A stretch of DNA of 43,402 nt, from assembly GCA_017452545.1 (NCBI GenBank), contig JAFTME010000083.1, positions 1-43,402 of the forward strand, given 5' to 3'. Made by a program: the position numbers and the translations under genes. The notes below the pieces were generated by a model that did no database searches, was not told the DNA's origin, and saw only the letters and a list, made by a program, of their open reading frames with translations. Below, piece after piece: positions 32,820-35,636 of the stretch (position 1 is the first letter of the stretch; each line of letters begins with the position of its first letter). The DNA comes from Clostridia bacterium. Lineage in GTDB: Bacteria; Bacillota; Clostridia; Oscillospirales; CAG-272.

Positions 32820-32911
32820 GGAGATGTACTCAAGAGGCCGAAGAGGCGCCCCTGCTAAGGGTGTAGGCCGGTTATCCCGGCGCGAGAGTTCAAATCTCTC
32901 CATCTCCGCCA
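32820..32911 (+). tRNA. tRNA-Ser (anticodon GCU), CCA encoded
   Basis: This is a class II tRNA of 92 nt. The acceptor GGAGATG pairs with CATCTCC, the anticodon stem is CGCCC/GGGTG and the loop CTGCTAA has anticodon GCT. A long variable arm (GGCCGG...CCGGC) and T-arm GAGAGTTCAAATCTCTC follow, with discriminator G and encoded CCA at 32909-32911. It reads AGC and AGU codons. Confidence 0.96.
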
Positions 32912-32914
32912 AAG

Positions 32915-32956
32915 AATAACTGTCATTCTGATACATCGGAATGACGGTTATTTTAT
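32915..32956 (+). terminator. Terminator of tRNA-Ser
   Basis: A 14-bp stem with one G-T pair (32915-32928 with 32939-32952) is followed by TTATGTTT. Confidence 0.82.
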
Positions 32957-33005
32957 GTTTAAAACACCATTTTGGGGAGCTTTTTGGGAGAGAAATCCCA
33001 AAATT

Positions 33006-33115
33006 GATTGTTTAAGCCTGTTTCAAATCGTTAAAAGACAAGTAATCGTTAAAATGTAGGTATAATCGTTGATTTGTTGGGGTAATCGTTAAATGATAGG
33101 CAACAATCGTTGACA
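33006..33115 (+). repeat. Direct repeat array AATCGTT, about 20-bp period, upstream of an unknown gene
   Basis: The core AATCGTT begins at 33026, 33044, 33064, 33084 and 33105 (steps 18, 20, 20, 21). A degenerate sixth copy (GATTGTT) is at 33006, again 20 bp away. After the core, R-A and a TAGG-like tail are partly kept. All copies lie on the same face of the helix (two turns apart), and the last runs into the -35 box of the downstream promoter. This is the look of a multi-site activator operator. The boxes resemble the LytTR consensus (CGTTNA core) more than any other family I know. Confidence 0.8.
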
Positions 33116-33138
33116 GATAGTGATCTTTATGGTATAGT
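33110..33138 (+). promoter_or_regulatory. Promoter of the orphan 179-aa protein gene
   Basis: TTGACA (33110-33115), a 17-bp spacer and TATAGT (33133-33138). The -35 overlaps the last copy of the direct repeat array. Confidence 0.8.
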
Positions 33139-33158
33139 ATACTTAAGGTGGTGATTAT

Positions 33159-33698
33159 ATGACATTGAACGATGCGAAGATCCTGTTATCGGAAAACAAC
33201 ATTGTTTTCGATGTGCGCGAATTTGAAAATGAAACAGCATATTGGCGCCATGTGTCAATGTTCCCTTATACGAAAAATGCAAAAACTTGTAAAGTCATTG
33301 CCTTGATCATTCGAAGCAATAATGGAAGAAACGATATTGAACTCCAGTTCAATGCTGTTGATAGCACCTTTCATTTTGAAGAACTGTGGTTTGGCAGTTA
33401 TAGTTTTGAAATGTTTGATTATAACAAAGAAATGCTTGCTGACGATTTGTTAGATCGCATAAAGGAGATTCAAAGCGGCCAGTTCGTTGTAATTATTGCA
33501 AACGACCTCAAGAAGAGAACTTGGCTTGGGGATGCTTGTTTTGATCTGAACGATGATGACGATGCATTTGGACGAAGCGGTTTCGATAAAGCAATGGAAC
33601 GAATCAATAAACCCAAGGGGCTAATCTCAAGATTGTTAAGAACGCAAAAACAATACGATATTTACGATTGGAATACTTATCGGTGCATAGTGAAATGA
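33159..33698 (+). CDS. Unknown protein in AT-rich island downstream of tRNA-Ser
   Basis: This 179-aa soluble acidic protein has no signal peptide or membrane segment, and I do not recognise the family. AAGGTGGTGATTAT precedes the ATG. It starts MTLNDAKILLSENNIVFDV, contains the beta-rich region CKVIALIIRSNNGRNDIEL and later a basic helix (GLISRLLRTQKQYD). Codon use is much more AT-rich than in the genes on both sides, which suggests recent acquisition. It stands alone between the repeat array at its promoter and the C-rich repeats and terminators behind it. A regulated accessory function is possible, but nothing in the sequence names it. Confidence 0.75.
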   Translation: MTLNDAKILLSENNIVFDVREFENETAYWRHVSMFPYTKNAKTCKVIALIIRSNNGRNDIELQFNAVDSTFHFEELWFGSYSFEMFDYNKEMLADDLLDRIKEIQSGQFVVIIANDLKKRTWLGDACFDLNDDDDAFGRSGFDKAMERINKPKGLISRLLRTQKQYDIYDWNTYRCIVK

Positions 33699-33700
33699 TT

Positions 33701-33770
33701 TGCACCCCCTTATCCTAAAAATGCACCCCCTAAAATGACTTTGCACCCCCTAACCTTAAAAGGGGGTGCA
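33701..33770. repeat. Three direct TGCACCCCCT repeats plus one inverted copy
   Basis: TGCACCCCCT occurs at 33701-33710, 33722-33731 and 33742-33751 (steps of 21 and 20). Its exact reverse complement AGGGGGTGCA follows at 33761-33770. Any of the three direct copies could pair with the single inverted one. Confidence 0.8.
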
Positions 33771-33776
33771 TTTGTA
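33742..33776 (+). terminator. Terminator formed by the last direct and the inverted C-rich repeat
   Basis: TGCACCCCCT and AGGGGGTGCA form a 10-bp stem (9-nt loop), followed by TTTGT. It probably ends the orphan gene transcript. Confidence 0.6.
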
Positions 33777-33798
33777 TCAAAATTAGGGTTAGTCTTCA

Positions 33799-33840
33799 GA
33801 AAAAGACCGATGCTTTGTATCAAAGCAACGGTCTTTTTCA
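33799..33840. terminator. Strong bidirectional hairpin terminator
   Basis: GAAAAAGACCG / CGGTCTTTTTC with an inner ATGCTTTG/CAAAGCA pairing forms an almost continuous stem. The T runs at either end allow termination in both directions. Confidence 0.75.
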
Positions 33841-34078
33841 ATAAAATAAATCCCTTGCCGGATTTGTGAAATACGCTATGCGTGGTGTAATACGGCTTCG
33901 TCATGTGAATTGCGCTGCGGCGCGTGAGGGGCTTTTTTTCATTTCACTTGATGCGGTTTTTAAATGATATTTACTCTTGACAAACGAGGATGCCGCCGTC
34001 GGAATTTCTTTGCGCTATATATGTATGTTATCAATAAAAACAGAGACTATTTGGCAACATATTTTAGAAGTTTGATGC
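33841..34078. other. Intergenic stretch without a supported gene
   Basis: This lies between the orphan gene's terminators and the T-box promoter. It holds a GC-rich patch (33910-33935) with a T7 run behind it, and an isolated TTGACA near 33975 without a matching -10. A 64-codon minus-strand frame (33710-33904) covers the repeats and terminator and has no ribosome binding site. Confidence 0.5.
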
Positions 34079-34113: not shown

Positions 34114-34393
34114 TATTTATTGAAATGCGTTGAAGAGGACACGCAGGCATGGTTCCGATGCAGAGAGTTGACGGGGGGTGCAAGTCAACGAGGAGAATGT
34201 CTGTAGCTCACCTCGGAGCAGCTGCGCTGAACGGTTTTCTTGGCTGAGTAGGGGCAGACGGAGGCTGACCGTTACAGCGGCTGTGTATATTCACGTTGAG
34301 TGGTCGCGCAAGCGGCAAAAAGAGTGGTACCGCAAGATTTTTGTATGAAGATCCTGTCTCTTTCATTTGGGGAAGAGGCGGGCTATTTTTATA
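34114..34393 (+). promoter_or_regulatory. T-box leader, leucine (CUC) specifier
   Basis: The T-box core GAGTGGTACCGC is at 34322-34333, with TGGT ready to pair with an ACCA tRNA end. Stem I contains the distal GAGAGTTGAC...GTCAAC arm (34163-34190). The specifier region reads CTC at 34207-34209, followed by ACCTCGGAGC, the arrangement seen in leucine T-boxes. A terminator (CCTGTCTCTT with AAGAGGCGGG, 34353-34382) precedes TATTTTTAT. Uncharged tRNA-Leu(GAG) should stabilise the antiterminator and switch on the operon. The element type is certain; leucine specificity is read from the CTC position. Confidence 0.92.
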
Positions 34394-34433
34394 TCTGCCC
34401 TCGTTCATAGATGGTCAAAGGAGGATATTTCCT

Positions 34434-35636
34434 ATGCTAACACTGGATAAAATCTTTCACGCATCAGTTGTGCTGAAGGACATCGTTCGCAAAACGACGG
34501 TGGTCAATTCTGTTGGAATTGCGCCTGAATGCGAGCTGTTTCTGAAGCCTGAAAACCTACAAAATACCGGCTCGTTCAAGCTACGCGGCTCGGGCTATAA
34601 AATTGCAATGCTTTCCGAGGAAGAAAAAAAGCGCGGCGTTATTGCTTGCTCCGCAGGAAACCACGCACAGGGTGTTGCGCTGGCAGCGGCAAAATGCGGT
34701 ATTCCTGCATTGATCTGCCTGCCGGACAGTGCCCCCATCTCCAAGGTCGAGGCGACCAAGGCGTACGGCGCGCAGGTTTGCCTGGTCAAGGGCTGCTACG
34801 ACGATGCTTATCAAAAGGCGCTGCAGCTTAAGGATGAGATGGGCTATACCTTCGTGCATCCCTTTGATGACGAAAACGTTATCGCAGGTCAGGGAACCAT
34901 TGGTCTTGAGATCACGCGCGATCTTGACGACGTGGATGCCATCATCGTTCCCATCGGTGGTGGCGGTCTGATCTCGGGTGTGGCATATGCCATCAAGTCG
35001 ATCCGCCCCTCCATCAAGGTATACGGTGTGCAGGCAGCGGGAGCGCCCAGTATGTACAATTCCATTCGCAGCGGTAAGATCGAAACGCTGTCCTCCGTTT
35101 CCACCATTGCCGACGGTATTGCCGTCAAGCAGCCCGGTGAGAATACGTTCAAGCTGATCAATGATTACGTAGATGATATTGCGCTGGTGACCGAGGACGA
35201 GATCTCCTCCGCCATCCTGGCGCTGATTGAAAAGCAAAAGATGATCGCAGAGGGCGCGGGTGCTGTTTCCGTGGCGGCTGCCATGTTCAATAAATTCCCC
35301 ATCCAGGGCAAGAAGGTCGTCAGCGTGGTCTCGGGCGGTAACATTGACGTAACCAGCCTCTCCCGCGTCATCGAACGCGGCTTGATCAAGTCGGGACGCT
35401 CGTCCTCGCTGCTGATTGAGCTGATCGACAAGCCCGGACAGCTCAAGGACGTTTCCCGTATTATTGCGGACTGCGGCGGTAACGTTACCAGCGTCCATCA
35501 TGAACGGGCAGGGGATACCGAGAGCGTCAACGGCTGCTATCTGCGTATCGCTATGGAAACGAGAAATTACGAGCACGTACAGCAAATCATGGAGGCACTT
35601 CGCGCAGAGGGCTTCAAAATCGTGGAAAATCGTTGA
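34434..35636 (+). CDS. ilvA: Threonine ammonia-lyase (threonine dehydratase)
   Basis: The enzyme converts threonine to 2-oxobutanoate and ammonia, the first step of isoleucine synthesis. The 400-aa protein has the PLP lysine K49 in TGSFKLRG, the phosphate-binding glycine loop IGGGGLISG and a single C-terminal ACT domain (from about residue 325, LLIELIDKPGQLKDVSRII). The short form with one ACT domain is common in Clostridia. The ATG at 34434 has AAAGGAGG upstream; the longer frame covers the T-box. It is the first gene of the operon and therefore directly under leucine T-box control. It is followed by ridA 18 bp later. Confidence 0.93.
   Translation: MLTLDKIFHASVVLKDIVRKTTVVNSVGIAPECELFLKPENLQNTGSFKLRGSGYKIAMLSEEEKKRGVIACSAGNHAQGVALAAAKCGIPALICLPDSAPISKVEATKAYGAQVCLVKGCYDDAYQKALQLKDEMGYTFVHPFDDENVIAGQGTIGLEITRDLDDVDAIIVPIGGGGLISGVAYAIKSIRPSIKVYGVQAAGAPSMYNSIRSGKIETLSSVSTIADGIAVKQPGENTFKLINDYVDDIALVTEDEISSAILALIEKQKMIAEGAGAVSVAAAMFNKFPIQGKKVVSVVSGGNIDVTSLSRVIERGLIKSGRSSSLLIELIDKPGQLKDVSRIIADCGGNVTSVHHERAGDTESVNGCYLRIAMETRNYEHVQQIMEALRAEGFKIVENR

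Follow-up and report, generated by a model that had tools for sequence, protein, structure and literature searches.

The strict consensus of the sites bound by LytTR-family response regulators is [TA][AC][CA]GTTN[AG][TG]. These sites are 9-bp direct repeats with 11–13 bp between them (mostly 12), and they lie 4–11 bp upstream of the −35 element (PMC6193735). BldC, a MerR-like protein of Streptomyces, binds cooperatively and head to tail at AT-rich direct repeats, the number of which varies (PMC5859096). At the locus described here and in its relatives, direct repeats of AATCGTT leave 9–12 bp between copies when these are counted as 9-bp units, and the last copy overlaps the −35 element in some cases and stops about 3 bp short of it in others. 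The locus lies in a window of 43,402 nucleotides, the whole stretch of Clostridia bacterium DNA that was analyzed, and all positions below are those of the window. Its features are as follows.

32820–32911, + strand: tRNA-Ser(gct) with encoded CCA, found with ARAGORN; the cassette begins directly 3′ of it
32912–33798, + strand: one-gene cassette, between the tRNA CCA and what formerly came next
32910–32936, + strand: left terminal inverted repeat, whose core CA (32910–32911) is common with the tRNA CCA
32915–32951, + strand: left-end hairpin, terminator-like, 96% column identity in 12 cassettes
32952–33024, + strand: connecting segment, poorly conserved (71%)
33026–33111, + strand: array of five AATCGTT direct repeats, with copies starting at 33026, 33044, 33064, 33084 and 33105
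33110–33138, + strand: promoter TTGACA-17 bp-TATAGT in a TATGG extended −10 context; the −35 begins 4 bp past the start of the last ATCGTT
33159–33698, + strand: cargo gene of 179 amino acids, no family, with relatives in six MAGs
33702–33769, + strand: right-end region with a hairpin, three GCACCCCC direct repeats and an inverted GGGGGTGC (33762–33769)
33772–33798, + strand: right terminal inverted repeat TTGTATCAAAATTAGGGTTAGTCTTCA, the cassette end

Judged from comparison of the loci, the array is part of a mobile, non-autonomous family of one-gene cassettes with varied cargo. Relatives were searched for with the array itself and then with a sequence model made from eight copies, and the strong array matches that were readable are located in cassettes. 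In the strong loci these follow a common plan. In the left half, the tRNA CCA is followed by the hairpin AAGAATAACCGTCATTCTGATACAACGGAATGACGGTTATTTT, a loosely conserved stretch of about 65 bp, the array and the promoter. In the right half, one small gene is followed by the GCACCCCC repeats with the inverted GGGGGTGC, then by TTGTATYAAAATTAGGGTTAGTCTTCA and a new terminator-like stretch. In the window the GCACCCCC repeats start at 33702, 33723 and 33743, which are 21 and 20 bp apart; covariation gave no support for the right-end hairpin. The Gut-1 RNA (RF01706) has a match directly after the cassette, at 33839–33916 of the window; in relatives, similar sets of heptamers between mini-hairpins (TGAAAT, ATATCAT, and ACATCGTT in G072) come after tRNA terminators. 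Further on in the window (34121–35636) a T-box leader precedes a PLP-dependent enzyme with an ACT domain, which is threonine dehydratase-like.

The two cassette ends are terminal inverted repeats of about 26 bp that surround a common CA. The window's left end equals the inverted right end at 19 of 27 positions, and the match is 18–21 of 27 in most cassettes with both ends located, while random pairs average 6.9; two pairs scored 7 and 10 after being mis-anchored by the script. The junction of the tRNA CCA with AAGAATAAC is identical in 7 other loci, and CA is the sole stretch common to the cassette junction and the tRNA end. When the cassette ends are joined they form the inverted-repeat junction TTGTATCAAAATTAGGGTTAGTCTT-CA-AAGAATAACCCTAATTTTGATACAA, so that the deduced junction of a circular cassette is a long inverted repeat around CA.

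The host tRNAs are those for Ser (gct, gga, tga, cga) and Ala (cgc, ggc), and some cassettes lie behind other sites that likewise end in CA. An alternative CA-ended target, which finishes in GTAGCCCATAGACA or TTTACACA, is found to the left of the cassette in L268, L271, L274, L006 and L007; it represents the beginning of a further small divergent gene, or a relic of one. Two cassettes stand head to tail in L268, where ATCTTCA joins AAGAATAACC, and array-less cassettes are arranged head to tail in L327 and L340. The tRNA-Ser(gct) gene is free of a cassette in three genomes of the same genus (L224, L225 and L228). Between genomes G004 and G221, which belong to different genera, the left arm and array are identical at 196 of 201 positions, while upstream of the tRNA the two sequences cannot be aligned (171/346). 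MAG contamination is a caveat on this identity, but the copies in G221 are spread over separate contigs. Across the order, the right-end motif occurs in 31 of 394 genomes with one mismatch allowed, some of these by chance, compared to 0 for the reversed control. The genomes are nearly all MAGs, and contigs frequently end within cassettes.

Partial duplications of the tRNA 3′ end (TTCAAATCTCTCC..CTCCGCCA) are also seen downstream of the real tRNA in L285, L319, L230, L233, L268 and L272, with three in tandem in L272 and inverted T-arm relics in some loci. We read these as traces of another process by which DNA is inserted there.

The cargo differs from cassette to cassette and forms 14 groups with no mutual similarity. 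Most of it belongs to no family; the families that were found are DUF4304 (6e-25, one cargo), HTH_3 and several lipoproteins, with weak matches to SUKH-1 and DUF4303, and PADLOC gave HTH-type matches only. These assignments suggest a pool of immunity genes. The 179-aa protein of the window has no Pfam family, and its gene was found in only this genome among the 59 whole genomes searched, so its distribution is patchy. As to a plasmid or phage origin, tblastn with this protein gave no match in PLSDB or INPHARED. Its AlphaFold2 model (pLDDT 77) has no confident PDB match: the best VIA-align hit, a P1 head protein (Z 6.9, 92 residues), is at the level of unrelated matches. Therefore we make no functional claim from the fold, and the missing match is itself no evidence.

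The array is exact. The initial annotation had reported five identical 7-mers with the last one overlapping a TTGACA −35 box, and both hold: all five copies are perfect on the + strand, at spacings of 18, 20, 20 and 21 bp, and TTGACA occupies 33110–33115. It had also counted a degenerate sixth copy at 33006 (ATTGTT), which we do not retain because this part of the left arm is poorly conserved in relatives (71%, compared to 98% for the cores, in 12 aligned relatives). Chance was rejected as the origin of the array: 60 windows were simulated with matching dinucleotide content, and the maximum in them was 2 copies per 107 bp. A CRISPR or a simple tandem repeat was likewise rejected, since the sequences between the copies are not unique inserts and do not repeat exactly either. 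Elsewhere in the genome there is a single further pair of AATCGTT with 9–15 bp between copies. A scan of IMG/VR for the pattern with ATCGTT triplets returned matches that are mostly chance.

Other Oscillospirales genomes contain the same five-copy array, in 14 distinct versions that precede 11 or more unrelated families of small genes. In the canonical class the spacing is 18/20/20/21, and apart from losses of whole units the sole change is 20 for 21 in one array. Column identity among the 14 distinct five-copy arrays is 98% in the AATCGTT cores, 80% in the spacers and 71% in the connecting segment.

The position of the array relative to the promoter is fixed as well. Counted from the start of the last ATCGTT, the −35 element begins at exactly 4 bp in 6 families and at exactly 12 bp in 5, with promoters called by consensus and the values for L286, L287 and L274 (three in all) read by eye, as automatic chaining of the repeats is wrong there. 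The distance from the −35 to the extended −10 is 17 bp throughout, and the bases between them vary among families. In the window the −10 TATAGT is at 33133–33138, ahead of the ATG at 33159. More distant variants (L278, L279, L282, L013) have a promoter about 35–70 bp from the array, and the HTH-type cassettes L273 and L281 carry partial arrays. At the level of sequence, comparison establishes the cassette ends, the array, its geometry and its independence from cargo.

It is probable, at roughly 0.55, that the array is a cassette-borne cooperative operator for a regulator encoded outside the cassette. The proposed binder is a host protein that recognizes direct repeats spaced by two helical turns. 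It would fill the five sites cooperatively, each proposed site consisting of AATCGTT plus roughly RAWTTAYAG, about 16 bp in total. The bound protein would then control RNA polymerase at the −35 next to the array, activation being the most likely mode, and any captured gene would come under one common regulator. The binding protein, the sign of regulation and the signal are what we infer here. The fixed geometry could instead reflect common ancestry and too little time, though the spacers have diverged. The remote promoters of the distant variants, the partial arrays of L273 and L281, and the recombinase gene that takes the place of a promoter after the related array in L363 and L364 also count against an operator. 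The initial annotation had proposed an operator for the 33159–33698 gene. Its core stands in that the array is conserved, constrained and fixed to a promoter, but an operator dedicated to a single orphan gene gives way to one that travels with a mobile cassette family and precedes many genes.

The array might alternatively be a set of recombinase sites, either the arm-type sites of a tyrosine integrase or the subterminal sites of a transposase, that serve cassette movement and merely adjoin the promoter. Subterminal repeat arrays are known in the ends of Tn7-like and Tn402-like elements, and the array is at a fixed 110–111 bp past the tRNA CCA in 8 loci, a distance of 207 bp being found where a set of ATATCAT palindromes lies in between. 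Moreover, the right end likewise has direct repeats about 20 bp apart, those of GCACCCCC, and in L363 and L364 a tyrosine recombinase gene has a related five-copy array directly at its 3′ end. However, the motif at this other cassette end is a different one, the strict 4 or 12 bp to the −35 would be left without reason, and the recombinase of L363 lies within an hsdS cluster of type I restriction and resembles the invertase of that cluster. The array-less cassettes also speak against it. In seven of them (L319, L321, L322, L326, L327, L007 and L011) the −35 is part of the left hairpin, TTGCGG in its 3′ arm, and a related right end is kept in L319, L321, L322, L326 and L327. Having related ends and a different promoter, these cassettes indicate that the array is tied to expression and is not needed for mobility. 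Recombinase sites are therefore a fairly unlikely account of the array.

Recombinase genes do occur near related ends and arrays, as associations only. Paired large serine recombinase genes begin just inside a related end in L330 and L332, which are contigs from viral collections. In L346 the 3′ end of a serine recombinase gene adjoins a left end, and in L280 a broken serine recombinase gene follows a variant array. In L363 and L364 the related array is followed by the convergent tyrosine recombinase gene, with no promoter. The sharing of CA may be analogous to that of large serine recombinases or to a 2-bp target duplication. As for the enzyme that moves the cassettes, large serine recombinases are the candidate class, given the 2-bp core and the presence of such genes next to two related ends. 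Cassettes may also be larger: in L332 (1246–4234 of this IMG/VR contig) a right end comes after cargo of several genes. The type I restriction locus of L363 (6200–16960) has several hsdS-like genes in both orientations along with the tyrosine recombinase, adjoins a tRNA-end copy and a Tn916-like integrase, and is likely a phase-variable shufflon.

As to what might bind a cassette-borne operator, the initial annotation had favored a LytTR-family response regulator of the AgrA/ComE/VirR kind, possibly under a peptide quorum signal, that activates the gene. The period of 18–21 bp is close to the spacing of LytTR sites, the GTT core is common to both, and a scan of the genome does find four LytTR genes. 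None of these four loci has such an array, however, and positions 33001–33140 contain no match to the strict consensus, all five copies having T at position 2. Neither a linked regulator nor a peptide gene was seen in the cassettes. We regard a LytTR regulator as an unlikely partner.

It is very unlikely that the array has no sequence-specific partner at all, being an AT-rich phased stretch that is bent or resembles an UP element, or an ancestral repeat of the left arm. The spacers are indeed AT-rich, and copy number has fallen from five to one in L006, to three in L020 and to two in L009 without loss of the gene. The single copy in L006, whose protein is 99% identical, is chimeric, as if the DNA from the first to the last repeat had been deleted. 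L007, L010 and L011 have no copy, so that homologues without the repeats, which the initial annotation had named as evidence against its proposal, exist in part; in L008 and L009 the array is kept, and its distances to the start codon are unchanged. The retention of the gene in relatives with one copy or none counts against an operator too. On the other hand, if the DNA were neutral or simply AT-rich, one would not expect 98% identity in the 7-bp cores compared to 71% just outside them.

Literature searches of partial coverage found no published description of such cassettes. We tentatively propose, at somewhat less than even odds, a new cassette system of Oscillospirales that combines CA-core insertion at tRNA CCA ends, tandem one-gene units, a common cooperative operator and an exchangeable, perhaps immunity-related, gene pool. 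If this is true, gut Clostridia maintain single-gene cassettes at the ends of tRNA genes as a pool like that of integrons, with a common operator built in, and this would explain the orphan genes found behind their tRNA genes. It would also offer a route to find and express many uncharacterized, fast-moving genes together, as well as a testable object for how a regulator follows mobile cargo.

The cassettes and their array share features with several known systems and differ from each of them. The operators of LytTR regulators (AgrA, ComE, HdrR/BrsR) are alike in having direct repeats about two helical turns apart near the −35 with a GTT core. They usually consist of two 9-bp copies with 12 bp between them, whereas the array has five copies with T at consensus position 2, is found with varying cargo and has no linked regulator. 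The repeats bound by BldC have a period of about one turn and lie at host genes, while those of the array are two turns apart and lie on cassettes. Mobile insertion cassettes (MICs) have terminal inverted repeats around a passenger gene with no transposase inside, and inverted ends matching at 18–21 of 27 positions do flank a passenger gene without a transposase in most of the present cassettes; MICs have IS ends, and what sets these cassettes apart is that they target the tRNA CCA end, carry a common control array and have only the CA dinucleotide at their junctions. Islands of the SCC or large-serine-recombinase kind have att sites with a 2-bp core, for which the CA of the cassettes is a candidate counterpart. 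They also resemble the cassettes in tandem insertion at the 3′ end of a gene and in the serine recombinase pairs, which in L330 and L332 adjoin related ends, but a cassette measures only about 0.9 kb and has one gene, no recombinase and a tRNA target. The acquired interbacterial defence (AID) arrays of Bacteroidales also consist of small genes that are exchanged, lie close to sites of recombination and in part resemble immunity genes. For the cargo described here an immunity role is only putative, and the present cassettes have one gene each, lie at tRNA ends and come from another phylum. Integron cassettes are also one-gene units with a hairpin after the stop codon, interchangeable cargo and tandem junctions; the cassettes described here differ in carrying a promoter and a control array of their own, in the inverted repeats that bound them on either side, and in having a tRNA CCA instead of attI.
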